46,843 bases of DNA. Source: Acidobacteriota bacterium. GTDB lineage: Bacteria; Acidobacteriota; Terriglobia; Bryobacterales; Bryobacteraceae. Numbering within the stretch: the stretch's first letter is position 1; each line of letters begins with the position of its first letter. Shown in pieces: positions 23,820 to 41,434 of this stretch. Position numbers and translations under genes: made by a program. Below the pieces are notes generated by a model. It saw only the letters and a list, made by a program, of their open reading frames with translations, was not told the origin of the DNA and searched no databases. The stretch lies in the NCBI GenBank assembly GCA_003223115.1, contig QHXW01000267.1, forward strand, positions 1-46,843. Reading direction: 5' to 3'.

Positions 23820-24510
23820 TGGAAGAGGAGGAACTGATGATGAATTAGCGAAACCTCTTAATGTCATCCAGCGGGTGTAAATCCCGCCTGATCAAAGTCG
23901 AGCAGACAGGTCAGTAGCGAGTCTTGCCATTCGCCGGGCGACCGGTGGGTGCGAAGCGTAGACAGCGAGGCAGTAGGCCCTGAGGATCAGCCCCGAAATT
24001 GTCCATCGTTGCGAGGCCGACGTGTCGAGGCTAGCGGAAGGCAGTATCCGGCAGCGACCGCTATTTGCGAGGTCGGGCCGACTCGCCGGGGTCTCCAGCC
24101 CAGGGCATGCTCCACAGGGATGAGGGATGGCCCAGGAACCGAAGAGAGCTCCCGATTTCCTCCTCATGAGGGGAGATACGTCACCCCAAGGGTCGACCGG
24201 AGGGGTGACGGATGGATCGGGAGCGGTCGTAGAAACCCATAGTACCGATGAAGGTGGGGAACCGCAGGGCTCCCGTAAGGGGCGGCCACGGGACCCACTG
24301 GAGGGAAGGGGTTGCCCGAGCGGATGTATCGGGCGAAGGAAACATAGTCGAGACTTAGAACTCGGTTGCTATGTACCCAAAACTCGACCGACTATCTGCC
24401 CCGAACCAGGAGAAGACACCTGAGGAGAGGTGGTGAATCCGCTTGACGAACCCGCTGCGGGAAATCTGCACGGTGGGGTCTGTGAGGGGGGAGTCCCCGA
24501 TGCGCCATGA
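23820..24510 (+). ncRNA. Group II intron-like RNA lacking its reverse transcriptase
   Basis: This ~690-base stretch has the look of a bacterial group II intron's non-coding domains: GC-rich, full of short stems, with blocks I know from intron regions near the maturase gene (GTAGAAACCCATAGTACCGA and 'gatgaaggtggggaaccgc'; 'gaagcgtagacagcgaggca'). A hairpin at 24448-24480 resembles domain V: lower stem GAACCC/GGGGTC and TGCGG/TCTGCA closed by a GAAA loop. However it lacks the catalytic AGC triad. No maturase is present. Boundaries are uncertain; I could not fix a GUGYG 5' end. Small open frames across it (for example 24127-24423) are not genes. Confidence 0.55.
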
Positions 24511-24593
24511 TGGACCTAAACGGGCACGAAGCTGGAAACGGCGGACACAGCCAAGGAAAGTCTAAAGTACATCGGGTCTCCTCTACTCGGCAG

Positions 24594-24749
24594 GCGAAGT
24601 ACGCGCTCGCCTTTGGTATAAATCTTCAGCGTCAACTTGCCGCAATGCAGCTTGAAGATCGTCAGATCATACGTGGGTTTCTCAACCGCCACTTCCCATT
24701 CAGTGGACTTCCCTTTCCGCTTGCGATATCTCGGACGGCGCTCGGCTTT
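24594..24749 (-). pseudogene. Fragment of an unknown protein (TYDLTIFK...TKGERVLR)
   Basis: On the minus strand a fragment reads YRKRKGKSTEWEVAVEKP, then TYDLTIFKLHCGKLTLKIYT and KGERVLR. I know this string from longer uncharacterised proteins that recur in environmental genomes, but cannot assign a function. Both ends are cut: the C-terminal side runs into the intron-like RNA and the N-terminal side into the GxxExxY fragment on the other strand. Confidence 0.45.
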
Positions 24750-24942
24750 CACGCTGACTTGGTCGTGGAGGACAAAGTAATCGTGGAGATCAAGTCCGTG
24801 GAGACAGTCGCGCTCCGTACACAAAAAGCAGCTCCTCAGTTATCTGCAACTGGCCGACAGACCTTTGGGGCTGCTCATCCACTTCAATGTTGTCTTGATC
24901 AAAAACGGCATCACGCACATCGTAAACCGACTCCAAGAATGA
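24742..24942 (+). pseudogene. GxxExxY protein, C-terminal remnant with frameshift
   Basis: The frame LGFHADLVVEDKVIVEIKSVETVA, broken by about one extra base near 24808, continues as VHKKQLLSYLQLADRPLGLL and VVLIKNGITHIVNRLQE followed by TGA at 24940-24942. This is the C-terminal part of GxxExxY proteins (PD-(D/E)XK nuclease-like fold; the DLVVEDKVIVEIKS strand carries the active-site pattern). The N-terminus with the GxxExxY motif is absent. Just downstream, CTCTCGCAAAGACGCTAAGG is a common dispersed intergenic repeat in these genomes. Confidence 0.75.
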
Positions 24943-25027
24943 CTCTCGCAAAGACGCTAAGGACGAAAAGACAACGTCACAGCTTCGCAACCACTGAAAC
25001 ACCCGCCAGTAGAACCTTAATCGGCTC

Positions 25028-25615
25028 GGAACGGACAGGGAAGTCGTGGGCAAAGCCTCCCATGCCGTCGACGCGTCTCTCAAGGCGCCGAAGCCAAGCC
25101 GGACGTGGAGCTGATGGACATCGGCATGACCGGCCTCAGCAGCTTCGAAGCTAACCCGGCAGATCCGTAAAAACCGGCCCGAGACCAAACTGTTGCTTCT
25201 CACCATGTATGACGACAAAGACTATGAATGCATGGAGTCGGGTGCAGCTGGCTACGTTCTGAAGGACAGTCCTGCTGCCCAACTGTTAAACGCCTTCCGC
25301 GAAGTCCACCGTGGCGGCAGCTATCTCAGCCCGCGCATGCTGGCGCAACTGGTTGACGATTTCCGCTCGCGCGTTAAATCCACCGAGCGGTTACCGCGTT
25401 TCGCTACGCTGACCCCCCGCGAAAAAGAAGTTCTAAAACTACTGGCCGAGGGCAACTCGGTCAAGGAAATCGCCTGTACGTTGAACCTGAGTGTCAAGAC
25501 CGTTGAAGCGCACAAATTCAATCTGATGCGTAAGCTGGATCTCCATAACAAAGCTCAGCTTGTGCAGTACGCCGTCCAGAAGAAGATCATCAAAATCCCC
25601 ATCCCGGGGGAGTAG
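25028..25615 (+). pseudogene. NarL/LuxR-family response regulator, N-terminus decayed
   Basis: The C-terminal part is intact from 25193: LTMYDDKDYECMESGAAGYV, LKDSP, then a LuxR-type helix-turn-helix (LTPREKEVLKLLAEGNSVKE...LNLSVKTVEAHKFNLMRKL). Upstream, receiver-domain pieces occur in other frames: REVVGKASHAVDA, the acceptor-site strand ELMDIGMTGLSSFEA, then IRKNRPETKLLLL after a one-base shift near 25150. The first ~30 residues with the acidic DD pair are missing. It could at best express a receiver-less DNA-binding fragment from the ATG at 25205. A terminator follows at 25665. Confidence 0.75.
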
Positions 25616-28200: not shown

Positions 28201-29913
28201 ATGGCCAAATTCTTGATCGGTGTGGTAACTGGGATCATTCTCGTAGGCCTCTTCTTGTTGATCGGCGTGTTCGCGCTGGCGCGCCTGCGGGAAAAACCGC
28301 CCACGGTGGCGGACAATTCCACGCTTATCCTGGAACTGGATGGTGAACTGCCGGAACGTGCACCGGTCGAGTTTCCAATTCCGTTCTTGCAACGCAAAAC
28401 TCCGCCCACGATTGCCGACATCTGGTCCACCTTACGCAAGGCCGCGGCCGACCGGCACATTCGCGCTATTGTGCTCGAGCCCCACGATATGCAAATTTCC
28501 TGGGGTAAGCTGCAGGAAATCCGCGCTGATCTCGAAACCTTCAAGAAATCCGGGAAACCGCTCTATGCCTACCTGAAGACGCCCGGCACTCGTGAGTACT
28601 ACCTGGCTACCGCCGCGGATCACGTATCCATGGATCCGGAAGACGAACTGAACCTGAAGGGCATGCGCTTCGAGCTGCTCTTTTTCAAGAAAACGCTGGA
28701 TAAGATCGGCGTGCACGTGGAGATCGAACACGCTGGCAAGTACAAGGACTTCGGGGACATGTTCACGCGCACCTCCATGAGCGCGGAGACCAAGGAAGTG
28801 CTGAATAGCATCATCGATGAGCTGTACGGCCATCTCGTGGCGACCATCGCCTCCGCTCGCAAGAAGACCCCCGACCAGGTGCGGGCCATCATCGATCAGG
28901 GCCCCTTTTTGTCCCCCCAGGCGCGCAATAACGGCCTGGTCGACGCGCTGCTTTACGAAGACCAGATGTACGACAAGCTGAAACAACGGCTGAATAGCGG
29001 CGACTTAAGGAAAATTTCGCTGCGCGATTACATGCGCGTGCCGGCCGAGTCTGTCGGCAAACATCGGATTGCTCTGGTTACTGGGGAGGGCGGCATCACG
29101 CGTGGAGAAAGCGACGATTTTTCAGGTGATAACGGCATCCAGTCCGAAGACTTTGACAAGCTGCTGCGCCGCGTCGGCAATGATTCCGGCATTAAAGGCG
29201 TCATCGTCCGCATCGATTCGCCGGGCGGCGAGGTTTTCGCCTCCGACGCCATCTGGCGCGAGATGAACCTGCTCAGTAAGAAAAAGCCCATGGTGATTTC
29301 CATGTCGGACACCGCGGCTTCCGGCGGCTACTACATCTCCATGACCGGCGACTCGGTGCTGGCTTACCCGGGCACCTTTACCGGTTCCATCGGCGTGGTG
29401 TTTGGCAAAGCCAATTTCCACGGTCTCTACGACAAGCTGGGCGTCACCAAAGACCTCCTGCTCCGTGGACGCTTCGCCGCCATTGACTCCGACTATCAGC
29501 CGCTGACGCCCCCAGAGCAGCAGAAGCTGCACGACGATATCGACCAGAATTACCGCAGTTTCGTAACTAAGGTCGCCCAGGCGCGGCGGCGCAGGTTTGA
29601 GCAGATTGAACCCGTCGCTCAGGGACGCGTGTGGCTCGGTTCCCAGGCCAAGGAGAACGGCCTGGTGGACGAGCTTGGCGGGCTGGACAGGGCCGTTGCG
29701 CTGGTCAAGGAAAAGGCCAAGATCGCGAAAAGCGACACAGTAACTTTGGTGAGCTATCCGCCCAAACGCAGTTTCGTCGACATCCTGTTCGGCCACGCCG
29801 GCGAGGAAGCCATGGACGTACGCTTCGCCGGACTGCTGAAGCGCTGGCAGGCCCGTCTGTGGAGCCGTGGCGGCCTGATGCGTCTCATGCCCTATACCAT
29901 CGAAGTCCGCTAG
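28201..29913 (+). CDS. sppA: Signal peptide peptidase SppA (67K type, S49 family)
   Basis: A 570-residue membrane-anchored serine protease that degrades cleaved signal peptides. One N-terminal transmembrane helix (residues ~4-27) is followed by two tandem S49 domains, as in the long SppA form. The catalytic Lys is in EHAGKYKDFGDMF (~180) and the Ser in SMSDTAASGGYYISM (~374), so the dyad is split between the domains as expected. GGAG lies just before the ATG, and a TATACT box at 28180-28185 is a likely -10 giving a very short leader. After the stop comes a hairpin region. Confidence 0.93.
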   Translation: MAKFLIGVVTGIILVGLFLLIGVFALARLREKPPTVADNSTLILELDGELPERAPVEFPIPFLQRKTPPTIADIWSTLRKAAADRHIRAIVLEPHDMQISWGKLQEIRADLETFKKSGKPLYAYLKTPGTREYYLATAADHVSMDPEDELNLKGMRFELLFFKKTLDKIGVHVEIEHAGKYKDFGDMFTRTSMSAETKEVLNSIIDELYGHLVATIASARKKTPDQVRAIIDQGPFLSPQARNNGLVDALLYEDQMYDKLKQRLNSGDLRKISLRDYMRVPAESVGKHRIALVTGEGGITRGESDDFSGDNGIQSEDFDKLLRRVGNDSGIKGVIVRIDSPGGEVFASDAIWREMNLLSKKKPMVISMSDTAASGGYYISMTGDSVLAYPGTFTGSIGVVFGKANFHGLYDKLGVTKDLLLRGRFAAIDSDYQPLTPPEQQKLHDDIDQNYRSFVTKVAQARRRRFEQIEPVAQGRVWLGSQAKENGLVDELGGLDRAVALVKEKAKIAKSDTVTLVSYPPKRSFVDILFGHAGEEAMDVRFAGLLKRWQARLWSRGGLMRLMPYTIEVR

Positions 29914-29970
29914 CTAGTAGCTAGCCGGTGGGACCCGGCTTCGGGCGGTCGTGCTCCTGAGCCGGTGGGG

Positions 29971-29990
29971 GACAGGCGCTTCCGCCTGTC
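29971..29990. terminator. Strong hairpin after sppA (possible terminator or repeat)
   Basis: GACAGGCG-CTTC-CGCCTGTC forms an eight-pair stem with a tetraloop 58 bases after the sppA stop. No T-run follows, so it may be a repeat element or an mRNA 3' stabiliser instead. A second small palindrome, GCTAGCT-AGT-AGCTAGC (29909-29925), spans the sppA stop codon. The rest of the gap to 30200 (about 210 bases) holds nothing I recognise. Confidence 0.45.
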
Positions 29991-30200
29991 GTCATTCCTC
30001 CGCTTCGCGCCCGCTCAATGTAACATCCCGCGTAACAGGGCAGTTTTTTCACTCTGCGCGAAAAAAATCTTGCCACTTTCCTCCAGCCTGCGTCATATTG
30101 AAAACAGGCGCACCAGAACCGATGTAGAGCGCATCCCAACCGGCCGGTAATCGAGACGTCCGTGTAGCGCTGCGGTTTATGGATGCACCCGGGCGTCGCG

Positions 30201-31490
30201 ATGGCGGAGATTCTGTACTTCACCGAACTCCAAGGGCTGCCGGTACTCGATGTGCGAGGCCGCCGGATCGGTCGTGTGCGCGACGCTGCCCTGGTTCCGG
30301 TAGTGCACCCCGCCCGGATTGACCGATTCCTGGTCGGCGGCGGTTACGCCTGGCTTACCGTCCGCCACGATCAAATCGCTTCCATTTCACTCCAGGGCAT
30401 CCGTTTGGCAGACGAGCAACTCACTCCGTACCACTCTGACGAGTACATGCTGCGCATCGGCCGCGATCTGCTGGACCAGCAGATTATCGATGTGAACGGG
30501 CGCAAAGTAGTCCGGGTCAATGACGTTACTTTCGAGATCCGGAACGGCAACGGGCATGGGGGCAACGGTCACGCCGGGAACGGGCATGCCAACGGCGGTA
30601 ATGGGCGCACCATGCTCTACATCCTGGAGGTTGACGTGGGCATCCGTAGCATCTTCCGCCGACTTCTCCAGGGCGTCTTGCGCCCGCGCTGGATTCGGTC
30701 CCTGCAACGTGCGATTTCGCCCAATTCCATCCGCTGGGAGTTCTGCAATATCGTCGAAGCCGACCCCCAGCGCCGCCTGCGGCTCAACATTTCTCACGAG
30801 AAGCTGGAGAAAATGCACCCGGCTGACCTGGCCGATATCGTTGAAGAACTGGGCCCGGCCGAGCGCGAGGCCATTTTCGAAACGATTAACGAAGGGGTGG
30901 CCGCTGACGCGCTGTCCGAGGTCCATCCCAAAATGCAAGCCAGCATTCTGGAAGCGCTCGAGCCGGAAAGGGCCGCCAACATCGTCGAGGAGATGGCGCC
31001 AGACCAGGCCGCCAATGCCCTCGGTGAACTGGAAGAATCTACTTCCGAAGAGATTCTGGATGAGATGGAAGTGGCTCCCGAGAGCGAGGTCCGCGAGCTG
31101 TTGGAATTTCCAGAGGACACGGCGGGCGGCATGATGAATACCGAGTACATCGCTCTGCACGAGGGTGCTACCGTGGAGGATGCCATGGCCGCTCTCAAAG
31201 GCAACGAGGAACAACTCGAGAGCCTGAACGCCCTTTTTTTGGTGGATTCCGAGGGCCGGCTCACTGGCGCGGTGCCCCTTGCGCGTCTGTTTATCGCTTC
31301 CGGTGTAACTCCGCTCAAGCAGCTTACGAGCGAGACGCTCATCTCCGCCATGGTGGACGAAAAACAGGAAGAGATCACCGAGCTCTTCGACAAGTACAAC
31401 CTTCTCGCCCTGCCCGTCGTTGATGAGGAGAGACATCTGGCGGGCGTAATCACCGCGGACGATATCATCTCCGTGCTGAGGCATAAGTGA
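30201..31490 (+). CDS. PRC-barrel / MgtE_N / CBS soluble regulatory protein
   Basis: About 429 residues from the ATG starting MAEILYF (an ATG at 30183 is an alternative). Order: PRC-barrel-like domain (GLPVLDVRGRRIGRVRDA), a second PRC-like strand set (DVNGRKVVRVNDVTFE) interrupted at ~115-135 by a Gly/Asn/His-rich linker with three GNGH units, then MgtE N-terminal domain (~200-312; HPADLADIVEELGP, EDTAGGMMNTEY) and a CBS pair (~314-429). The MgtE membrane channel is absent. MgtE_N and CBS together are the cytosolic Mg2+ sensor of MgtE channels. The Nramp-type transporter starts 12 bases later, so this protein is likely a Mg2+-sensing or metal-sensing regulator acting in trans on it. The His-rich linker may bind metal. 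Confidence 0.88.
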   Translation: MAEILYFTELQGLPVLDVRGRRIGRVRDAALVPVVHPARIDRFLVGGGYAWLTVRHDQIASISLQGIRLADEQLTPYHSDEYMLRIGRDLLDQQIIDVNGRKVVRVNDVTFEIRNGNGHGGNGHAGNGHANGGNGRTMLYILEVDVGIRSIFRRLLQGVLRPRWIRSLQRAISPNSIRWEFCNIVEADPQRRLRLNISHEKLEKMHPADLADIVEELGPAEREAIFETINEGVAADALSEVHPKMQASILEALEPERAANIVEEMAPDQAANALGELEESTSEEILDEMEVAPESEVRELLEFPEDTAGGMMNTEYIALHEGATVEDAMAALKGNEEQLESLNALFLVDSEGRLTGAVPLARLFIASGVTPLKQLTSETLISAMVDEKQEEITELFDKYNLLALPVVDEERHLAGVITADDIISVLRHK

Positions 31491-31502
31491 TCGAACCGGC
31501 TC

Positions 31503-32738
31503 ATGCTGAAATCGTTGCGTTCGCGGATCGCAATCTTTCTCGCCGTCCTCGGCCCGGGCTTTATTACCGCAAACGTCGATAACGACGCCGGCGGCATTTA
31601 CACCTATTCCCAGGCGGGTGCGCGCTGGGGCTACCTTCCGCTCTGGACTCTCATACCCATCACCCTGGCCCTGATTGTGGCCCAGGAGATGTCCTCTCGG
31701 ATGGGGGCGGTCACCGGCAAAGGACTTTCCGACCTGATCCGCGAAGAATTCGGCCTCCGCATCACCTTCGTCCTGATGGCGCTGCTGGTTCTAGTGAATC
31801 TCACCAACGTCATGGCCAACTTTGCGGGCATTGCGTCAGCGTTGGAAGTGATGCATGTGACGCGTTATATCTCGGTTCCTCTCGGCGCGCTTGCCATCTG
31901 GCTTCTCATCGTCAAAGGCAACTATAAACGCGCCGAAAAAATCTTTCTCTTCGCCTGCGTGGTTTATATTGCCTACATTATTTCGGGCATTCTGGTGAAA
32001 CCCAACTGGACCGAAGCGGCCATCAACAGCTTCAGGCCGGTTGTGATGTTGGACCGCGACTACATCGGCATGCTCATCGGGATGGTCGGCACCACAATTG
32101 CCCCCTGGATGCAGTTCTACTTGCAGGCGGCGGTGGTGGAGAAGGGAATTACAGCCAAGGAATACGCCCAGTCCCGCGTGGAAGTGATCTTTGGCTGCGT
32201 GATGACGGACGTGGTAGCCTTCTTTATCATCGTGGCCTGCGCCGGGGCAATCTGGACGGTGGCGCCTCGCGATATCCAAAGCGCCGCTGAAGCGGCCCAA
32301 GGATTGAAGCCGTTCGGCCCTTACGCCTATCTGTTGTTTAGCGTGGGATTGCTCAATGCGTCGGTATTTGCCGCCTGTATTTTGCCGCTTTCCACCGCTT
32401 ATTCGGTTTGCGAAGGGCTGGGTTTTGAATCGGGCGTCGACAAGCGCTTCAACGAAGCACCTATTTTCTACTGGCTTTACACGCTGCTGATTGTCATTGG
32501 CGCAGCGGTAGTGTTGCTGCCCGGTTTTCCGTTGGTGAAAATGATTCTGGTTTCACAGGTGATCAATGGCGTATTATTACCTATCGTCCTGATTTTTATG
32601 GTTCTGCTTATTAATAAGAAAAACCTGATGCGGGAGTGGACTAATTCGCGCATCTACAACCTGGCGGTGTGGGTCACCGTCGTCATTATGATCGGGCTGG
32701 CGCTGTCGCTTGCGGCCATCAGCATACGCAGTATTTAA
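31503..32738 (+). CDS. Nramp-superfamily divalent metal transporter, NRMT-like metal site
   Basis: A 411-residue, ~11-helix transporter of the Nramp fold. Helix 1 reads VDNDAGGIYTYSQAGARWGY: aligned to the Nramp DPGN motif this is DAGG, keeping Asp28 but replacing the metal-binding Asn with Gly. Helix 6 reads GTTIAPWMQFYLQAA (Ala200-Pro-Trp) where Mn/Fe transporters have MPH; the metal-selective Met is Ala and the His is Trp. Loss of both soft or small-ion ligands is what is known for Nramp-related Mg2+ transporters, so Mg2+ is the best guess, with Mn2+ possible. It sits between a MgtE_N-CBS protein and a frataxin gene. Confidence 0.85.
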   Translation: MLKSLRSRIAIFLAVLGPGFITANVDNDAGGIYTYSQAGARWGYLPLWTLIPITLALIVAQEMSSRMGAVTGKGLSDLIREEFGLRITFVLMALLVLVNLTNVMANFAGIASALEVMHVTRYISVPLGALAIWLLIVKGNYKRAEKIFLFACVVYIAYIISGILVKPNWTEAAINSFRPVVMLDRDYIGMLIGMVGTTIAPWMQFYLQAAVVEKGITAKEYAQSRVEVIFGCVMTDVVAFFIIVACAGAIWTVAPRDIQSAAEAAQGLKPFGPYAYLLFSVGLLNASVFAACILPLSTAYSVCEGLGFESGVDKRFNEAPIFYWLYTLLIVIGAAVVLLPGFPLVKMILVSQVINGVLLPIVLIFMVLLINKKNLMREWTNSRIYNLAVWVTVVIMIGLALSLAAISIRSI

Positions 32739-32744
32739 CCGCCC

Positions 32745-33074
32745 ATGTTGGACGAACAGGATTTTAAGAAACGGGCTGATGAGGCGCTGGGAACTCTGCG
32801 CCGGTTGCTGATGTCTGCCGCGGACGATTACGGTTTCGACGTGGATTTCAATTCCGGCGCGCTGGGCATCGAATTCGAGGAGCCACCGGCGAAATTTGTG
32901 ATCAGTCCCAACACCCCTGTCCGCCAGATCTGGGTATCGGCTCACGCCAGGAGCTATAAACTTGATTGGGACGTGGTCGAGAACTCTTTTGTTCATACCG
33001 AGTCCGGAAAAACGCTCAAGGACTTGATCGAAGACGCTATCGGCAAGCAAGTGAAAGAAGATGTGAACCTGTAG
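32745..33074 (+). CDS. cyaY: CyaY/frataxin-like iron-binding protein
   Basis: A 109-residue protein of the frataxin/CyaY family: acidic first helix (LDEQDFKKRADEALGTLRRL), beta-sheet with VDFNSGALGIEFE, KFVISPNTPVRQIWVS and YKLDWDVVENSFVHTESGKT, and a C-terminal helix (LKDLIEDAIGKQV). Length and layout match. CyaY binds iron and modulates Fe-S cluster assembly in the cytosol. It starts six bases after the transporter stop and should be co-transcribed, which is unusual and suggests metal cross-talk. The permease gene follows after 27 bases. Confidence 0.85.
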   Translation: MLDEQDFKKRADEALGTLRRLLMSAADDYGFDVDFNSGALGIEFEEPPAKFVISPNTPVRQIWVSAHARSYKLDWDVVENSFVHTESGKTLKDLIEDAIGKQVKEDVNL

Positions 33075-33101: not shown

Positions 33102-34565
33102 ATGACCCCGCGCCCCAATCAGGATTCAAGCGATCTCAACCGCTTTGGCTACGCCCAGGAGCTGTTCCGCAGCATGGGCGGATTTTCCAACTTCGCGATT
33201 TCGTTCTCCATCATCTCGATTCTCACCGGCGCGGTGACGCTCTTCGGCTATGGCCTCGAAATGGGCGGCCCGCTCGAAATGACGCTCGGTTGGCCCCTGG
33301 CAACTGTCTTCACGCTTACCGTGGCCGCCAGCATGGCGGAACTTTGCTCAGCTTATCCAACCGCGGGCGCCATGTACCACTGGGCGGCCGATCTGGGCGG
33401 TCCAGGTGCGGGCTGGTATGTCGCCTGGCTGAACATTTGCGGTCTCATCGCCGCCCAGGCCGGGATTAACTACAGTTGCGCCCAGTTCATTCTGCCGTTT
33501 CTGGGTGTGGCCTCCACGACGCACAATCTGTTCGCCATGTTTGCATTCATTCTCGTCACACAAGGCGTGCTGAACCACTATGGCGTACGCCTGGTGGCCA
33601 TACTCAACGACCTGAGCGTCACGGTGCATATCGTCGGCGTCATGCTGCTGGTGCTGGCATTGTTCCTGCTGGCTCCGAAGCAGCCGGTCAGCTTTCTGTT
33701 CCAGGCGGTAAACAGCAACGGCCGCCCGGTATATTGGTGGGCCTTCGTATTAGGATTGCTCCAGGCCCAGTGGACTTACACCGGGTTTGACGCTTCAGCT
33801 CATCTGGCTGAAGAGACCGGAGATCCGCGGCGCCGCGCTCCGTGGGGCATTATCATGTCGGTGTCTGTATCAGGGCTGTTTGGATATTTCATGCTCATCG
33901 CTTTGACGCTGGCCATCCGCAGCATTCCCGCTGTGCTCCAGGCCAAAGATGCCGGAAGCAACTCGATTCCCGCCGTCATCGCCATTCTCGATACAGCGCT
34001 CGGTGCGCGGGCGGGCAACGCTATGGCGGCGATGGCATCCATGGCCATGTGGTTCTGCGGTCTTTCCTGCATCACATCGGCATCACGAGCGCTGTACTCG
34101 CTGGCGCGCGATGAAGGGACACCCTGGTCGCGCCTGCTGCGATCTGTCAACCCGAAACACGGCACCCCCGCGCCCGCCATCTGGGCCATCGTTTTCGCCA
34201 GCATCGCAGCCATGGTCTGGAGCGAAGCAGTTCCGGTGGTCACCTCGCTCAGCACGGTGGCTCTCTACCTGGCCTACATCATTCCCGTGGCGCTGGGTTG
34301 GCGCGCCCGCCGCGCCGGCTCCCAATGGCCGCAGCAGGCCGTTTGGAATTTGGGACGTTTCGGTCCGGCGATAAATCTCGTGGCCATTGGTTTCGCCGGG
34401 TTCATCTGTGTGGTGCTGGTGATGCCGCCTAATGAACGTGCTGGAGAAACCTTGGGCGGCTTGCTGGTCGGGCTCACCGCGTTATATGCTCTCGTCGCGC
34501 GCCGGAAGTATAAAGGTCCCAAGTGGAGCCATCACCAGCCCATCGTGGGAGAATCTAAGCTATGA
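33102..34565 (+). CDS. APC-family amino acid/amine permease
   Basis: A 487-residue permease with ~12 transmembrane helices. The N-terminal FGYAQELFRSMGGFSNFAISFSIIS and the GYGLEMGGPLEM stretch match the GABA/choline-type (UGA4/BAT1-like) branch of the APC superfamily. YTGFDASAHLAEETGDP is the conserved loop after helix 6. It imports an amino acid, GABA or polyamine. Its stop overlaps the ATG of the aldehyde dehydrogenase gene (ATGA), so transport and catabolism are translationally coupled. Confidence 0.88.
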   Translation: MTPRPNQDSSDLNRFGYAQELFRSMGGFSNFAISFSIISILTGAVTLFGYGLEMGGPLEMTLGWPLATVFTLTVAASMAELCSAYPTAGAMYHWAADLGGPGAGWYVAWLNICGLIAAQAGINYSCAQFILPFLGVASTTHNLFAMFAFILVTQGVLNHYGVRLVAILNDLSVTVHIVGVMLLVLALFLLAPKQPVSFLFQAVNSNGRPVYWWAFVLGLLQAQWTYTGFDASAHLAEETGDPRRRAPWGIIMSVSVSGLFGYFMLIALTLAIRSIPAVLQAKDAGSNSIPAVIAILDTALGARAGNAMAAMASMAMWFCGLSCITSASRALYSLARDEGTPWSRLLRSVNPKHGTPAPAIWAIVFASIAAMVWSEAVPVVTSLSTVALYLAYIIPVALGWRARRAGSQWPQQAVWNLGRFGPAINLVAIGFAGFICVVLVMPPNERAGETLGGLLVGLTALYALVARRKYKGPKWSHHQPIVGESKL

Positions 34566-36058
34566 GTGTTGCTGAACCTGTGGTCCTCGCCGAAAGTCTC
34601 AAGAAGCATCTGAAGCCCGGCAAATTATTCATAAACGGTCGTGAAGAAGACGCCCAGAGTGGCAAAACCATCGATGTCATGAATCCCGCCACCGGTGAAT
34701 TGCTCACCGCGGTGCCCGACGGGGATGCGCCCGATGTGGATCGCGCCGTCGCCGCCGCTCGCCGTAGCTTCGAGAAAAAAAGCTGGCGCGGCATGGATCC
34801 ATCACGCAAGGAAAAAATTCTCTGGGACCTCTCCGAAATCCTGCTAAAGAACAAAGAAGAGCTTTCCGTACTCGAATCCATGGAGAACGGCAAGACCGTG
34901 CGTGAGGCCGGCAATGCGGACGTCAACCCGGCCATTGACGCTTTTCGATACTACGCCGGCTGGGTGCGCAAGATCTACGGCGAAACCATTCCCGTCGATG
35001 GTCCGTTTTTGAACTACACAGTGCGCGAGCCCGTGGGCGTAGTGGGCGCTGTGGTGCCCTGGAATTATCCGCTGCAGCTTGCCGTGTGGAAGGTCGCGCC
35101 GGCTCTGGCCTGCGGCTGCTCGGTGGTGCTGAAGCCTTCGGAAATGACGCCGCTCACCGCGCTCAAGCTGGCGGAATATTGTATGCAGGCCGGCGTGCCT
35201 GAGGGCGTGGTCAACGTGGTGACTGGTTACGGCCATTCGGCCGGCGAAGCTCTCGGCCGGCACATGGATGTCGACAAGATTAGCTTCACGGGCAGCATCC
35301 GCACCGCCCGCGCGCTGCTGAAAGCTTCCGCCGAATCCAATCTCAAACGATTGAGCCTGGAGCTGGGCGGCAAATCGCCGAACATCATTTTTCCCGATTG
35401 CGATTTTGAAGCTGCGCTCAAGGCCGCATTTTGGGGCATCTTCGCCAATAAGGGCGAGATCTGCAGTGCTGCCTCGCGCTTGCTGCTGCACGCCGACATT
35501 CATGACAAATTCCTGGATGAGCTGGTTTCCCGCGCCAAACGTTTGAAAGTCGGCGATCCCCTGGACAAGGGCACGCTCATGGGCTCGCAGATTTCTGCCA
35601 CGCAGCTCAATCGCATCTTGAGTTATATCGAATCCGGCAAACAAGAAGGCGCCAAGCTGCTGTGCGGCGGGGAGCGCGATACCGACGGCGCGAAAGCCAA
35701 GGGCTTTTTCGTGAAGCCCACGATTTTCTCTGAAGTAAAGCCGCAGATGAAAATCGCCCAGGAGGAAATCTTCGGTCCTGTGCTGGCCGCTCTGCGCTTC
35801 CGCGATGCCGAAGAGGCTGTCGAGATCGCCAACGGCACTATTTACGGATTGGTCTCGGCTGTGTGGACCCACGATATTCAGCGCGCCCACCGCGTGGCGT
35901 CGGAAATCAAGGCTGGCGTGGTCTGGATCAATACTTATAACGGTTTCGACACTGCGGCGCCCTTCGGCGGTTATAAGCAGAGCGGGTACGGCCGCGATCT
36001 GGGCGCGCACGCGCTCGATCAGTACACCAGCGTAAAATCGGTCTGGGTAGCGCTCTGA
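34562..36058 (+). CDS. NAD(P)-dependent aldehyde dehydrogenase (betaine/aminobutyraldehyde type)
   Basis: A 498-residue class I-like ALDH. Motifs: VVPWNYPLQLAVWKVAPALA (cofactor and substrate site), FTGSIRTARALL (Rossmann turn), general base Glu267 in LSLELGGKSPN, catalytic Cys301 in NKGEICSAASR, and EEIFGPVLAALRF. It oxidises an aldehyde to an acid in the cytosol. With an amine permease before it and a glutamine-synthetase-like ligase after, the likely substrate is gamma-aminobutyraldehyde or its gamma-glutamyl form, or a related amino-aldehyde. It overlaps both neighbours by 1-4 bases. Confidence 0.92.
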   Translation: MSVAEPVVLAESLKKHLKPGKLFINGREEDAQSGKTIDVMNPATGELLTAVPDGDAPDVDRAVAAARRSFEKKSWRGMDPSRKEKILWDLSEILLKNKEELSVLESMENGKTVREAGNADVNPAIDAFRYYAGWVRKIYGETIPVDGPFLNYTVREPVGVVGAVVPWNYPLQLAVWKVAPALACGCSVVLKPSEMTPLTALKLAEYCMQAGVPEGVVNVVTGYGHSAGEALGRHMDVDKISFTGSIRTARALLKASAESNLKRLSLELGGKSPNIIFPDCDFEAALKAAFWGIFANKGEICSAASRLLLHADIHDKFLDELVSRAKRLKVGDPLDKGTLMGSQISATQLNRILSYIESGKQEGAKLLCGGERDTDGAKAKGFFVKPTIFSEVKPQMKIAQEEIFGPVLAALRFRDAEEAVEIANGTIYGLVSAVWTHDIQRAHRVASEIKAGVVWINTYNGFDTAAPFGGYKQSGYGRDLGAHALDQYTSVKSVWVAL

Positions 36059-37404
36059 TGGACGCGGCCGACCTCCGCGAACTCCTGGAAAAGAACAACA
36101 TCCGGCGCGTCAAGCTGGGCGCCTTCGATATCGATTGCACACTGCGCGGCAAGTACGTCAGCAGCGAGAAATTCATCTCCGGCGCGCAATCGGGTCTTGG
36201 TTTCTGCGACGTGATTTTTGGCTGGGACATCGGCGATGTGCTCTACGACAACGCGAAGTTCACCGGCTGGCACACCGGTTACCCGGATGCCACCTGCCGC
36301 ATCGACCTCGATACCTTCCGCCCCATTCCCTGGGAACCCGGCACCGCATTTTTTCTGATGGACTTTTACACCCGCGACGGAAAACCCCTGGAGATCGCTC
36401 CGCGGCAGGTGCTGCATCGGGTAATCGCGCGCGCTGAAGAGCTCGGCTACCAACCATACTTTTCGGCCGAATACGAGTTTTTCATTTTCCGTGAAACTCC
36501 GGAAAGTTTGCGCGCTAAGCATTTTCGCGGCCTCGTGCCGCTCGACCCAGGCATGTTCGGTTACAGCGTCCTGCGCGCCTCCGAGAGTTCCGAGCTGGTG
36601 CTGCAATTGATCGACCAGCTGGCCGCATTCAAATGTCCTCTGGAAGGGTTCCACACTGAAACCGGTCCCGGAGTTTACGAGGCCGCTATCGCTGTCGACC
36701 AGGCCGCTGGCGCTGCTGACAAAGCCGCGCTATTCAAGACCGCGGTCAAAGAAATCGCGGCGCGCCACCATCTGATCCCCACTTTCATGGCGAAGTGGAA
36801 TGCCGACCTGCCGGGCTCGAGCGGTCACCTGCACCAGAGTCTGTGGGACCGCGAGACGCGCCAGAATATTTTTTACGTGGAAAATGGCGCCATGTCGCCT
36901 CTCATGCAGCACTACATCGCCGGGCTGGTTGCCAACATGCCGGAACTGATGGCGATTATCTGCCCGACTGTTAATTCTTACAAGCGTACAGTGCCCGGAG
37001 CCTGGGCGCCCGTGAACGCCACTTGGGGCATTGATAACCGCACCACGGCCATCCGCGCCATTCCCGGCAGCGCGAAATCCACGCGCATCGAGATGCGTCT
37101 GTCAGGTGCCGACATCAATCCCTACCTCGCCATGGCCGCCTCGCTTGCCGCGGGTCTCGACGGTATCCAGCATAAACGCGAACTGCCGCCCGCTGCCGTG
37201 AATGCCTACGCCGGTACGGACTCGGTGCCGCTTCCGCGCAATCTGGCCGCGGCAACAAAGTTGTTCCGTGAAAGTTCCTTGGCGCGCTCCTGGCTGGGCG
37301 ACGAGTTCATCGACCACTACGCCGCCACCCGCGATTGGGAAGTACGCCAGTTCGAAAAAGCAGTCACGGACTGGGAGCTGGCGCGCTACTTCGAGTCCAT
37401 CTAA
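36058..37404 (+). CDS. Glutamine synthetase-family gamma-glutamyl-amine ligase
   Basis: A 448-residue GS-fold enzyme. Metal and catalytic residues are visible: AEYEFFIF (Glu138, Glu140), ETGPGVYEAAI, HQSLW in SSGHLHQSLWD, the ammonia/phosphate Arg loop NRTTAIRAI and IEMRLSGADINPYLAMAA. The lack of the GlnA adenylylation-type C-terminus and its place in an amine operon point to the PuuA/gamma-glutamylpolyamine or gamma-glutamylethanolamide synthetase group rather than nitrogen assimilation. The ATG overlaps the ALDH stop (TGATG). Confidence 0.88.
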   Translation: MDAADLRELLEKNNIRRVKLGAFDIDCTLRGKYVSSEKFISGAQSGLGFCDVIFGWDIGDVLYDNAKFTGWHTGYPDATCRIDLDTFRPIPWEPGTAFFLMDFYTRDGKPLEIAPRQVLHRVIARAEELGYQPYFSAEYEFFIFRETPESLRAKHFRGLVPLDPGMFGYSVLRASESSELVLQLIDQLAAFKCPLEGFHTETGPGVYEAAIAVDQAAGAADKAALFKTAVKEIAARHHLIPTFMAKWNADLPGSSGHLHQSLWDRETRQNIFYVENGAMSPLMQHYIAGLVANMPELMAIICPTVNSYKRTVPGAWAPVNATWGIDNRTTAIRAIPGSAKSTRIEMRLSGADINPYLAMAASLAAGLDGIQHKRELPPAAVNAYAGTDSVPLPRNLAAATKLFRESSLARSWLGDEFIDHYAATRDWEVRQFEKAVTDWELARYFESI

Positions 37405-37455
37405 GCAGAACCCAAAACCCAGAACCTGACACTTAAAACCTAGCACCTGACACCC
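37405..37455. repeat. Short degenerate direct repeat (acctgacac)
   Basis: Between the GS-like and alcohol dehydrogenase genes, ACCTGACAC occurs twice (about 37424 and 37443) within an AACCCAAAACCCAGAACC-type run. It resembles the 'ctaggtgctaggttc' intergenic repeats seen in this group. No promoter or coding role is visible. Confidence 0.4.
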
Positions 37456-37474
37456 GTGTTATTTTGGCCTTCTG

Positions 37475-38590
37475 ATGAGCCTTTCGACTTTTTCATTTCC
37501 CACCACCATTGTCTTCGGCGCCGGCGCAGTCAACCGGCTTTCCGATGAGTTGAAGAAGCGCAATATTCGGAAAGCACTCCTCGTCACCGATGCCGGTCTC
37601 ACGCGCACGCCCGTATTCGAACGCGTCCGCAAGCTGGCCCCAACGGCGGAAGTTTTTTCGAAGGTCGATGCCAATCCCACGGAGCAAAATGTTCTGGACG
37701 GCGCCGAAGCATATCGCGCCGCGGGTTGCGATGCCGTAATCGCGCTGGGTGGTGGATCGCCCCTCGATGTCGCCAAAGCCATTCGTCTTCTGGCCACCCA
37801 TCAGGGTTCGCTAGCCGAATACGACGATCTCATCGATGGTTCCAATCGCATTTCATCAAACCTGCCGCCCAATATCGCCATTGCTACTACCTCCGGCACC
37901 GGCAGCGAAGTCGGACGCTCGGCCGTCATTACCATTAAAGCCACGAATCGAAAAACGGTCATCTTCAGCCCGTATCTGATCCCGTCCATCACGTTGGCCG
38001 ATCCGGAACTCACGCTCGATCTGCCTCCGCACATCACCGCCGGAACCGGCATGGACGCCTTTACGCACAATGTCGAAGCTTATCTGGCCAAGGGCTACCA
38101 TCCCATGTGCGAGGCCATCGCGCTGGCCGGTGCAAAACTCGTCTGGGATAATCTGCCGCGCGCCATGCAGACTCCACACGATCTCGAAGCACGCTCGAAC
38201 ATGCTGATGGCAGCCATGATGGGCGCTGTGGCGTTTCAGAAAGGTCTGGGCGCTGTGCACTCGCTCGCCCACCCGCTCTCCACTGATTGCGGCATGCACC
38301 ACGGCACTACGAACGCCATTCTGCTGCCCGTTGTCCTCGAATATAACAGGCCCGCTGTTCCCGAACGGATGGCGCAGCTCTCGGCCTTATTCGGCGGAGG
38401 CGATCCTGCAGAGCGCGTGCGCGAACTGAACCGTCGAGTGAATATCAAGGCGCGTTTGCGCGATTGGGGCGTGGCTGAATCCATTCTTCCCGCGCTCGCC
38501 GATAAAGCCGTTCAGGACGGATGCCACCTTCTCAATCCGCGTGCCTGCACACGCGACGATTTGCTGAATCTCTACCGCCAGGCATTCTGA
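37475..38590 (+). CDS. Iron-containing alcohol dehydrogenase (group III)
   Basis: A 371-residue Fe-ADH. NAD site: VIALGGGSPLDVAKAIRLLA. Metal-site region: TAGTGMDAFTHNVEAYLAKG (Asp, His) with GLGAVHSLAHPLSTDCGMHHG (two further His). Substrate region: GTGSEVGRSAVIT. It interconverts an aldehyde and an alcohol, for example succinate semialdehyde to 4-hydroxybutyrate or a propanediol-type reaction. It is the last gene of the amine operon, after a 70-base gap. Substrate inferred only from context. Confidence 0.92.
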   Translation: MSLSTFSFPTTIVFGAGAVNRLSDELKKRNIRKALLVTDAGLTRTPVFERVRKLAPTAEVFSKVDANPTEQNVLDGAEAYRAAGCDAVIALGGGSPLDVAKAIRLLATHQGSLAEYDDLIDGSNRISSNLPPNIAIATTSGTGSEVGRSAVITIKATNRKTVIFSPYLIPSITLADPELTLDLPPHITAGTGMDAFTHNVEAYLAKGYHPMCEAIALAGAKLVWDNLPRAMQTPHDLEARSNMLMAAMMGAVAFQKGLGAVHSLAHPLSTDCGMHHGTTNAILLPVVLEYNRPAVPERMAQLSALFGGGDPAERVRELNRRVNIKARLRDWGVAESILPALADKAVQDGCHLLNPRACTRDDLLNLYRQAF

Positions 38591-39335: not shown

Positions 39336-40373
39336 TCAGCTCTTCCAGCGCAAGCCCACTCTCAGCACTTTCTTTGCGTATTCCAAGCTGCGCTCCAAGT
39401 CCGCGCGCTGTTGCTCTTTGAGCGCTGCTTCAATCACCGGCGGTTGCTTACCACCGCCGCCAATCACCATTGATCCCATGTATGGGTGGCCGCTCTTGGC
39501 GAGTTCCACGAATCGCGAAAACTCTGACGCCTGCGCGTGCGGAAAATCTTTCCAGAACTCGGGCTCCAGATATGGCAGCGGCGTGGGCGGCCGTCCGGTA
39601 ATAATCTCGAGCTGCATGGCCGCTGTCGGGCAGAGCTTCTGATACAGCTCCAGGAACCGGCGGAAATCCACGGAGCCATCGCCCAGCGCCACCCATTGAG
39701 CCGCCGCGCCCTGCGGAGTTTCGAATACAGCAGAATCGCGGATGTGTGTGGTCACCACGTACGGTCCCAGCGTCTCGATCGTCACCAGCGGGTTCTCCAC
39801 CACCCACATCGGATTTCCACTATCCAGGCAGGAGCCCACAAAGTCCGTGCCCGATTCCTCGATCAGTAATTTCACTTCACGCGCCTGCATGTCGCCCGCG
39901 TGGTTCTCCACTCCAATCCGCACACCCAGGTTCAGCGCTTCCGAACGCACCGATCGCAGCGCTTTGATCGTGGCGTCCATGCACGCGTCCAAATGCGGAC
40001 GATCGCCGCGCGCGCCCATGTAGCATCGCATGGAGTGAGCACCGACAGCTTCGGCCGTGCGCAATCCCTTCAGCAGAAACTCCGCGGGACTGCTTTCCCG
40101 TGGATTCCAGCCGTGCGACAACGGGCAGATGCAGCCGATGCCCGCGTCAATCGCGATGCCCACGCGCTCTGCGTGTTCTTTCACTTTTGCCAGATGCTCC
40201 GCATCGAGGCTCTCATAATCCGACAGGCCCGAGAGCTGAATCGTGTCCAGCTTCAGGCTCGCGGCATAATCCAGAAGTTGAATGTCCTTCCAGTGGAAAT
40301 CGCGGATCGAATAACTATCGAAACCCAGCCGGATGCCTTCACCCGGCGCAGTTGCGTTGCTCAACTTTTCCAC
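39336..40373 (-). CDS. Sugar phosphate isomerase/epimerase-like protein without signal peptide
   Basis: A 345-residue TIM-barrel protein highly similar along its whole length to the upstream gene (40361-41434); shared stretches include GEGIRLGFDS/T-YSIRDFHWKDIQ, VENHAGDMQAREVK, SCLDSGNP and THIRDSAVFE. The metal residues (Glu in VENH, Asp in CLDSGN, His in TTHIRD, Glu in QLEII) are all kept. It differs at the N-terminus: it starts MEKLSNATAPGEG with no Tat signal. Its start overlaps the upstream gene's stop by 13 bases. So it appears to be a tandem duplicate that now works in the cytosol. Confidence 0.88.
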   Translation of the reverse strand: MEKLSNATAPGEGIRLGFDSYSIRDFHWKDIQLLDYAASLKLDTIQLSGLSDYESLDAEHLAKVKEHAERVGIAIDAGIGCICPLSHGWNPRESSPAEFLLKGLRTAEAVGAHSMRCYMGARGDRPHLDACMDATIKALRSVRSEALNLGVRIGVENHAGDMQAREVKLLIEESGTDFVGSCLDSGNPMWVVENPLVTIETLGPYVVTTHIRDSAVFETPQGAAAQWVALGDGSVDFRRFLELYQKLCPTAAMQLEIITGRPPTPLPYLEPEFWKDFPHAQASEFSRFVELAKSGHPYMGSMVIGGGGKQPPVIEAALKEQQRADLERSLEYAKKVLRVGLRWKS

Positions 40374-41434
40374 CTCACGCCCACGCCCAGCACTTTCTTG
40401 GCGTAGTCCAGACTTCGCTTCAGGTCCACGCGCTGCTGCTCCTTCATCGCGGCGGCAATCGCCGGTGGCTGCTTACCCCATCCCCCGATCACCATGGGAC
40501 CGATGTACGGGTGCCCGTTCTTAGCGAGGTTCAGAAAGCGCGCGAACTCTGAGGCCGGCGTTGCCGGAAACGCTTTCCAAAACTCTGGCTCGAGGTAAGG
40601 CAAAATATCCGGCGGGATGCCCGTGATGATTTCGAGTTGCATAGAGGCTTTCGGGCAGAGCCTCTGATACAGTTCCACGAACCGGCGCAGATCCACCGAA
40701 CCGTCTCCCAGCGAAACCCACTGCACTGCCGCGCCGCGCGGGTGCTCGAATACCGCTGAATCGCGAATGTGCGTAGTCACCACGTAAGGTCCCAGCGTTT
40801 CGAGCGTGAGCAGCGGGTCCTCCACCGCCCACAACGGATTTCCGCTATCCAGACACGAGGCCACAAAATCTTTGCCGGCTTCCTCGATCAACATTTTTAC
40901 TTCGCGCGCCTGCATGTCTCCCGCATGATTCTCGACTGCGATGTGGATGCCGAGATCCAAGGCTTCCGAGCGCACTGATTCGAGCGCCTTCACCGTGGCT
41001 TCCATGCAGCGCTCGAGATTGGCCCGATCTTCGCGCGACCCCATATTGCAGCGCATGGCTCGCGCGCCCACGGCTTGCGCCACACTTAGTCCCTTGCGTA
41101 GATAGGCCGTGGGATTTCCCTCTCTCGGGTCCCAGCTCTTGGACACATCACAGATGCAGCCGATGCCCGCGTCAATCGCAATACCCAAGCGCCGCGCGTG
41201 GTCCGTCACCCGCCCGAGGTGCGTCGGCTCGAGACTCTCGTAATCGCCGAGACTCGAAAGCTGTACCGTGTCCAATTTCAAACTCGCGGCGTAATCCAGA
41301 AATTGAATGTCTTTCCAGTGAAAATCGCGGATCGAAAAAGTATCGAATCCCAGCCGGATCCCTTCACCCGGCGCGCTCGCGGCAGTGGCCAGCGCTGCGC
41401 CCGAAGTCGCTTGCAGAAATGTTCGGCGAAGCAT
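40361..41434 (-). CDS. Exported sugar phosphate isomerase/epimerase-like protein
   Basis: A 357-residue TIM-barrel protein beginning MLRRTFLQATSGAALATAAS, a Tat-type signal (RRTFL) ending near residue 20. Metal site residues: Glu168 (VENHAGD), Asp196 (CLDSGNP), His222 (THIRD) and the late Glu in MQLEIITG. Probable role: isomerisation or epimerisation of a sugar in the periplasm. It is first in a two-gene minus-strand operon with its own duplicate, and divergent from the membrane protein at 41497. Confidence 0.88.
   Translation of the reverse strand: MLRRTFLQATSGAALATAASAPGEGIRLGFDTFSIRDFHWKDIQFLDYAASLKLDTVQLSSLGDYESLEPTHLGRVTDHARRLGIAIDAGIGCICDVSKSWDPREGNPTAYLRKGLSVAQAVGARAMRCNMGSREDRANLERCMEATVKALESVRSEALDLGIHIAVENHAGDMQAREVKMLIEEAGKDFVASCLDSGNPLWAVEDPLLTLETLGPYVVTTHIRDSAVFEHPRGAAVQWVSLGDGSVDLRRFVELYQRLCPKASMQLEIITGIPPDILPYLEPEFWKAFPATPASEFARFLNLAKNGHPYIGPMVIGGWGKQPPAIAAAMKEQQRVDLKRSLDYAKKVLGVGVRWKS

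Follow-up and report, generated by a model that had tools for sequence, protein, structure and literature searches.

On contig QHXW01000267.1 of an Acidobacteriota bacterium of the Bryobacteraceae (assembly GCA_003223115.1), analyzed here over a stretch of 46,843 nucleotides that we term the window, three closely spaced genes follow one another on the forward strand. Judging by sequence, the first two on balance appear to encode an importer of the Nramp-related Mg2+ transporter (NRMT) type, for Mg2+ or possibly for both Mg2+ and Mn2+, and a cognate soluble regulator acting in trans. The pair as such has already been described, since passages of Shin et al. (2014, PLoS Genet; PMC4072509) report a MgtE-like gene beside most NrmT genes, and the window provides an Acidobacteriota example of it. 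What is new here are counts of the joint retention of the two genes across genomes, M-box riboswitches before three acidobacterial pairs and a tally of Mg2+-site residues in the partner proteins. No study of the MgtE-like partner later than the 2014 report was found in the literature searched.

The partner gene precedes the transporter gene by 12 bases, and the latter is followed after 6 bases by the frataxin-like gene cyaY; the row is flanked by an SppA-type peptidase gene upstream and an amino-acid permease gene downstream. This layout, with a PRC, MgtE_N and CBS protein devoid of a channel ahead of an Nramp-fold transporter and cyaY, had been described in an earlier note made from the letters of the stretch, and it agrees with our results in every detail checked. 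An alternative in-frame ATG at position 30183 would add 6 residues to the partner, and tblastn matches in relatives start mostly at residues 1-12 of the 429-residue form used here.

The transporter can be assigned to the NRMT family on several grounds. Of the solved structures, EleNRMT (7qia) matches it best, at 364 bits, whereas the best MntH reaches 85 bits. The canonical Nramp/MntH motifs DPGN and MPH, both found in the MntH of the same genome (C556), are not present in it and are replaced by DAGG and A200-P-W202. It carries DxxG on helix 1 and TxxA on helix 6, in keeping with the DxxG-TxxA/T signature given for NRMTs in the consulted passages of Ramanadane et al. (2022; PMC8806188), and both helix-6b histidines are also replaced (by W202 and L207 when aligned with 7qia). 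The window and 60 further loci together gave 53 NRMT-type open reading frames (ORFs), in all of which Gly stands at the Asn position of DPGN; the Met position is occupied by Ala (32), Thr (17) or Ser (4). In a tree of 47 rows, from which 10 of 57 rows had been excluded as near duplicates and in which MntH is represented by two rows, a split at 100/100 parts the MntH-type Nramps from the NRMTs, among which are the window protein and EleNRMT; some long branches were flagged. The transporter is hence not placed among the Mn2+/Fe2+ transporters, and its earlier reading as an Nramp-related protein that has lost the Asn and Met ligands is upheld.

Pfam identifies MgtE_N (2e-24), CBS (2.4e-15) and a partial PRC domain (1.4e-6) in the partner, and PRC was matched in 44 of the 48 partner relatives scanned. 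The structural model of the partner has a mean predicted local distance difference test score (pLDDT) of 89.5 and a predicted template modelling score (pTM) of 0.58, because of which the placing of the domains relative to each other is unsure. The fold of residues 200-429 corresponds to the cytosolic domain of MgtE (2zy9_A: Z 25.7, root-mean-square deviation (rmsd) 2.8, 230 residues), and the model also matches 2yvy (Z 26.5, rmsd 2.6, 239 residues); PRC structures are absent from the list of fold matches, an absence that carries no weight since the N-terminal part was modelled only within the whole partner. The chain stops about 2 residues past the point that aligns with MgtE residue 253, short of E258 and D259, the plug-helix ligands of Mg2 and Mg3, and neither the plug helix nor the transmembrane channel of MgtE is present. 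A family search for the channel (PF01769) found it neither in the partner nor in the window's genome (9.1 Mb, 594 contigs, 97.5% complete). Between the PRC part and MgtE_N lies a second strand-rich segment, residues 86-180, which has no Pfam match of its own and may be PRC-like. In an alignment of 48 rows, from which 4 of the 52 partner ORFs were excluded for a shorter N-terminus, residues D92, Q94, D97, V106, D108, R153 and W179 of the partner are invariant or nearly so.

The Mg2+ sites of the partners were assigned from passages of Maruyama et al. (PMC5882242) and compared with those of 20 control MgtEs, full-length proteins from the same phylum whose start codons were picked for lengths nearest 455 residues. 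In MgtE numbering, the two Mg4 residues D91 and D247 are Asp in 36 and 41 of the 52 partners, respectively, and in all 20 controls, and E59 (Mg7) is acidic in 44 partners and 19 controls. The plug-linked D250 (Mg5), which is Asp in every control, is so in only 3 partners (Glu in 15), and D95 (Mg6) shows the reverse, being Asp in 48 partners but in a single control. D226 is Asn in 18 of the 20 controls and is not diagnostic. The window partner keeps both Mg4 residues (D268 and D421) and an acid at Mg7 (D236), so that the aligned residues indicate a sensor half of MgtE that is partly kept and a plug that is gone. Loss of the MgtE-type ATP control was considered as a distinguishing feature and rejected: the adenine and ribose residues are missing in partners and controls alike, F227 being Leu in 45 of the 52 partners and in 19 of the 20 controls, and the ATP site is uninformative because full-length acidobacterial MgtEs lack its residues too.

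The same protein could be co-expressed with the transporter and respond to metal without gating it, serving through its PRC part as a scaffold, localisation factor or metal chaperone. Such a role would fit the lack of effect of co-expression in the published test considered below, the chaperone alternative that Shin et al. themselves name, the ATP-site residues not kept in the window partner and the fact that residues 86-109 are the most conserved short block of the alignment, with a mean top-residue frequency of 0.78 against 0.63 for MgtE_N and 0.52-0.53 for CBS. This block was selected after viewing the alignment, however, and over the wider segment 84-182 the mean is 0.57, lower than in MgtE_N. 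Moreover, most relatives retain the acids of Mg4 and Mg7, for which a pure scaffold would have no need. We therefore regard a non-gating partner as quite unlikely.

The two genes are retained together to a marked degree. In a set of 61 genomes, made up of the window's own and its closest relatives, 54 carry both genes, 6 neither, 1 the transporter only and none the partner only, weak matches to full-length MgtE not having been taken as partner; the transporter-only genome (G314) is 62% complete and its transporter a fragment. The genes lie within 400 nucleotides of each other in 52 of the 54 genomes with both, one of the genomes scored as non-adjacent (G307) having a partner piece 8 bases before the transporter. 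A sample of 297 genomes of the phylum yielded, at an NRMT cut-off of at least 42% identity, 70 NRMT places in 69 genomes. The partner is found upstream on the same strand within 400 nucleotides at 28 of these places, at 0.4-8 kb upstream at 21, more than 8 kb upstream at 1, downstream at 2 (144 nucleotides and 1.3 Mb) and on another contig at 18. Among the matches listed (to E of about 5e-34), all 47 partner matches that reach the PRC region fall in NRMT genomes; the Fisher p value given alongside the co-occurrence counts is 1.3e-7, a figure that ignores shared ancestry. In one acidobacterial family (f21) the two genes lie mostly on different contigs, and five of the separated partners (L081, L083, L085, L091 and L093) measure 410-415 residues and therefore have no channel. 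Of 80 named loci, which exclude Acidobacterium capsulatum, 68 have the partner, 59 of them within 400 nucleotides. Since the pairing recurs across the Acidobacteriota, it is more than chance, and the conservation that the earlier note had proposed to check is borne out for the two-gene pair in all three sets.

No natural fusion of partner and transporter occurs among the 52 partner ORFs (346-442 residues) and 53 transporter ORFs (407-443 residues) from the 60 loci and the window, read after dropping tblastn matches below 120 bits, and the long open frames listed in some genomes contain no fusion wherever both genes were read. An ORF of about 346-401 residues lies between partner and transporter in 10 of the 12 acidobacterial intervals inspected. 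The one copy searched, from Terriglobus roseus, matches Glyco_trans_1_2, and the ORF was set aside as a third shared gene, being probably an inserted sugar gene outside the unit. Four loci (L086, L087, L094 and L095) hold a divergent NRMT branch, 32-36% identical, with an MgtE_N partner gene downstream rather than upstream. Three others, titled Bacteroidetes, Rhodanobacteraceae and Bifidobacterium breve (L136, L164 and L171), carry the acidobacterial pair with 62-71% transporter identity, and these assemblies are probably mislabelled or mixed.

In Rfam scans of selected loci, the partner gene of one pair (L050/G269; 117 bits, 1 of 12 loci scanned) was preceded by an M-box at 68 bases, and that of a second (L188; 115 bits, 1 of 13 loci scanned) by one at about 100 bases. 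Genome-wide scans with strict filters, which may miss sites, were positive in 1 of the 297 and 2 of the 61 genomes (the sets share two genomes) and gave four sites in all, two of which precede the pair, in G269 and, about 150 bases before the partner, in G354:C24. In the three pairs with an M-box, the transporter shares 59-61% identity with that of the window. The other two M-boxes (L197 = G313:C104 and L198 = G354:C34) are situated some 0.5 kb ahead of a different Nramp-like gene, the product of which reads DNDAGA on helix 1 and is 31-34% identical to the window transporter; these loci represent a further Mg2+-linked Nramp branch in the Acidobacteriota.

It seems reasonable to postulate that the partner would sit on the cytoplasmic face of the transporter. 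At high cytoplasmic Mg2+, binding of Mg2+ between MgtE_N and CBS, at Mg4- and Mg7-type sites, would compact the partner, and the compacted form would lower uptake. With the MgtE plug helix gone, the signal would need a different surface for its passage, and the best candidate would be the conserved PRC-type segment that precedes MgtE_N. Both the gating and the docking are what we infer from the domains and residues described above; a model of partner and transporter tethered by reading through the stop codon has a pTM of 0.65, with pLDDT below 50 at the joint (residues 430-450) and no interface scores. A more specific version of the proposal, which we advance tentatively as something short of an even prospect, is that the partner is a dedicated trans-acting Mg2+ gate, in which the cis-gating module of MgtE serves an unrelated LeuT-fold carrier and signals through the PRC-type segment, the two genes being gained and lost together even in family f21, where most of them are separated. 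Were such gating in trans to hold, a single Mg2+-sensing module would govern a channel as well as an unrelated secondary carrier. The idea is made testable by our data on co-retention, riboswitches and binding sites, which also indicate the residues to change first.

Several observations weigh against an Mg2+ importer under the control of its partner. At the helix-3 position that is Glu in 49 of the 53 NRMT-type ORFs, the window transporter is one of three with Asn; the window partner has Asn272 at Mg6, where 48 of 52 relatives have Asp, and Ser424 in place of D250 at Mg5. At 18 of the 70 places of the phylum sample the two genes are not neighbours, and the partner is missing from 12 of the 80 named loci, in 8 of which the upstream DNA extends over 1.9-5 kb and in 4 over less than 1 kb. 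No M-box was found in the window at gathering score, nor in 29800-30300 at E up to 5, nor in 13 Bryobacterales-type pair loci. Finally, in the passages of Shin et al. consulted, the A. capsulatum transporter fully rescued the Mn2+ defect in Bacillus subtilis and the Mg2+ defect only at low millimolar Mg2+, co-expression of its MgtE-like partner brought no improvement, and Clostridium NrmT transporters were functional without a partner. A rescue assay would presumably hardly reveal a brake, and gating may therefore operate despite this negative result. The A. capsulatum Mn2+ result does imply that membership of the NRMT clade is by itself no proof of Mg2+ specificity.

That result also favors another explanation, in which the transporter would be physiologically an importer of Mn2+, or of both metals, and its MgtE-like partner would sense Mn2+ instead of Mg2+. 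The A. capsulatum pair acts as a Mn2+ transporter in B. subtilis, Shin et al. raise the possibility of its partner responding to Mn2+, EleNRMT moves Mn2+ as well as Mg2+ according to its authors (PMC8806188), and the missing M-box of the window points the same way. On the other hand, a canonical MntH carrying DPGN and MPH is already encoded elsewhere in the genome, M-boxes precede three acidobacterial pairs with transporters about 60% identical to this one, and the metal site is without its Met and Asn ligands. In view of these data we consider this explanation unlikely.

The earlier note had also tied the pair to iron, or to Mg/Mn/Fe balance, through cyaY, and had proposed conservation of the three-gene order as a check. 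The gene exceeds the cut-offs of both frataxin models (PF01491, 70.0 bits against 21.3; TIGR03421, 64.6 against 53.25). Its position 6 bases downstream of the transporter could speak for a single three-gene unit, as could its adjoining the transporter in 5 other relatives and the pair in 4 of the 80 named loci, on account of which the adjacency is a real inherited arrangement. Yet it adjoins the transporter in only 6 of the 24 relatives having both genes (window included) and was seen beside the pair in none of the 60 other loci fetched (51 around NRMT and 9 around a separated partner); 31 genomes (55 minus 24) have the transporter without any cyaY match, and five have cyaY without the transporter. 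Frataxin was thus rejected as a third component in any general sense, neither the iron tie nor the three-gene order being a rule. The cyaY neighbour reflects a local arrangement, inherited within part of one family, and a joint iron or Mg/Mn/Fe unit of the three genes is highly improbable. The coordinates of the three genes and of their domains and sites are collected in Table 1.

Table 1. Features of the partner-transporter locus and its cyaY neighbour (positions in the window; MgtE equivalents in parentheses)
Feature	Position	Strand	Basis
Soluble partner protein P0001, 429 residues	30201..31490	+	ORF and translation; Pfam; fold match
PRC-barrel part of partner, residues 3-72	30207..30416	+	Partial Pfam PRC match at residues 4-28; PRC in relatives; beta strands in model
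Second strand-rich segment of partner, residues 86-180, with motif LLDQQIIDVNGRKVVRVNDV	30456..30740	+	48-row alignment; model
MgtE_N domain of partner, residues 205-306; D268 (D91, Mg4), D236 (E59, Mg7), N272 (D95, Mg6)	30813..31118	+	
CBS pair of partner, residues 307-428; D421 (D247, Mg4), N400 (D226), S424 (D250, Mg5 lost)	31119..31484	+	
NRMT-type transporter P0002, 411 residues	31503..32738	+	Pfam Nramp 1e-88; tree; structure match
Helix 1 metal site D28-A-G-G31 (NRMT DxxG)	31584..31595	+	Translation, alignment; signature from a passage of PMC8806188
Helix 6 metal site T197-T-I-A200-P-W202 (NRMT TxxA; MntH Met and His replaced)	32091..32108	+	Translation, alignment
cyaY (frataxin-like), 109 residues; local neighbour, outside the counted unit	32745..33074	+	Pfam Frataxin_Cyay 2.2e-19

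The window's genome holds three Nramp-type genes (MntH C556, that of the window and C118) and one CorA gene, with no MgtE channel found, which makes the window importer one of several candidate Mg2+ routes and not the sole one. The third Nramp-type gene, C118 (L003), reads DPSG and TTIS at the metal site. The canonical MntH C556 (L001) is extended at its C-terminus by about 200 residues, which may be UspA-like, and similarly long open frames exist in many relatives. Directly after cyaY, positions 33102-38590 of the forward strand encode an amino-acid permease, an aldehyde dehydrogenase, a glutamine synthetase-type protein and an iron-containing alcohol dehydrogenase, a row that may constitute an amine-use operon; a relative of the permease likewise follows cyaY in locus L123. 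On the reverse strand, a tandem of overlapping genes for two similar xylose-isomerase-like TIM-barrel proteins (39336-40373 and 40361-41434) is probably the product of duplication. Upstream of the locus there is a group II intron D1-D4-6 match (RF02005, 118.6 bits) at 23878-24102 of the forward strand, and an ORF at 24507-25154 for which only a sub-threshold PD-(D/E)XK nuclease match was obtained.

Taken as a whole, the interpretation of the earlier note stands as regards the NRMT identity of the transporter, the conservation of the pair and, through the M-boxes, the Mg2+ link of some pairs; its frataxin tie does not, and the arrangement and the feedback idea had already been published, the consulted passages of Shin et al. 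putting forward, speculatively, cytoplasmic feedback regulation or chaperone activity for the MgtE-like protein. The closest known system is indeed the NrmT and MgtE-like pair of A. capsulatum in that report (ACP2976/ACP2977), which is the same pair in the same order and lineage, likewise with no M-box, an element that only part of that family has; as there, a homologue of the MgtE N-terminal cytoplasmic domain is encoded upstream of the transporter, here by 12 bases. Points of difference from that report are the description of a PRC-type part on the partner, the cyaY gene after the pair and the M-boxes ahead of other acidobacterial pairs. The transporter resembles EleNRMT, as presented in the passages of PMC8806188, in its DxxG and TxxA motifs, in the Trp at the first His position and in the replacement of the second His, and differs from it at helix 3, where Glu133 of EleNRMT corresponds to Asn106; no partner protein is mentioned in those passages. 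Compared with MgtE, the partner is without plug helix or channel, has an extra N-terminal PRC-type part and has lost the Mg5 acid D250 and, in the window, also the Mg6 acid D95. It shares with the MgtE cytosolic domain (2yvy and 2zy9) the succession of MgtE_N and a CBS pair, which superpose at an rmsd of 2.6-2.8 over 230-239 residues, together with the acids of the Mg4 and Mg7 sites.

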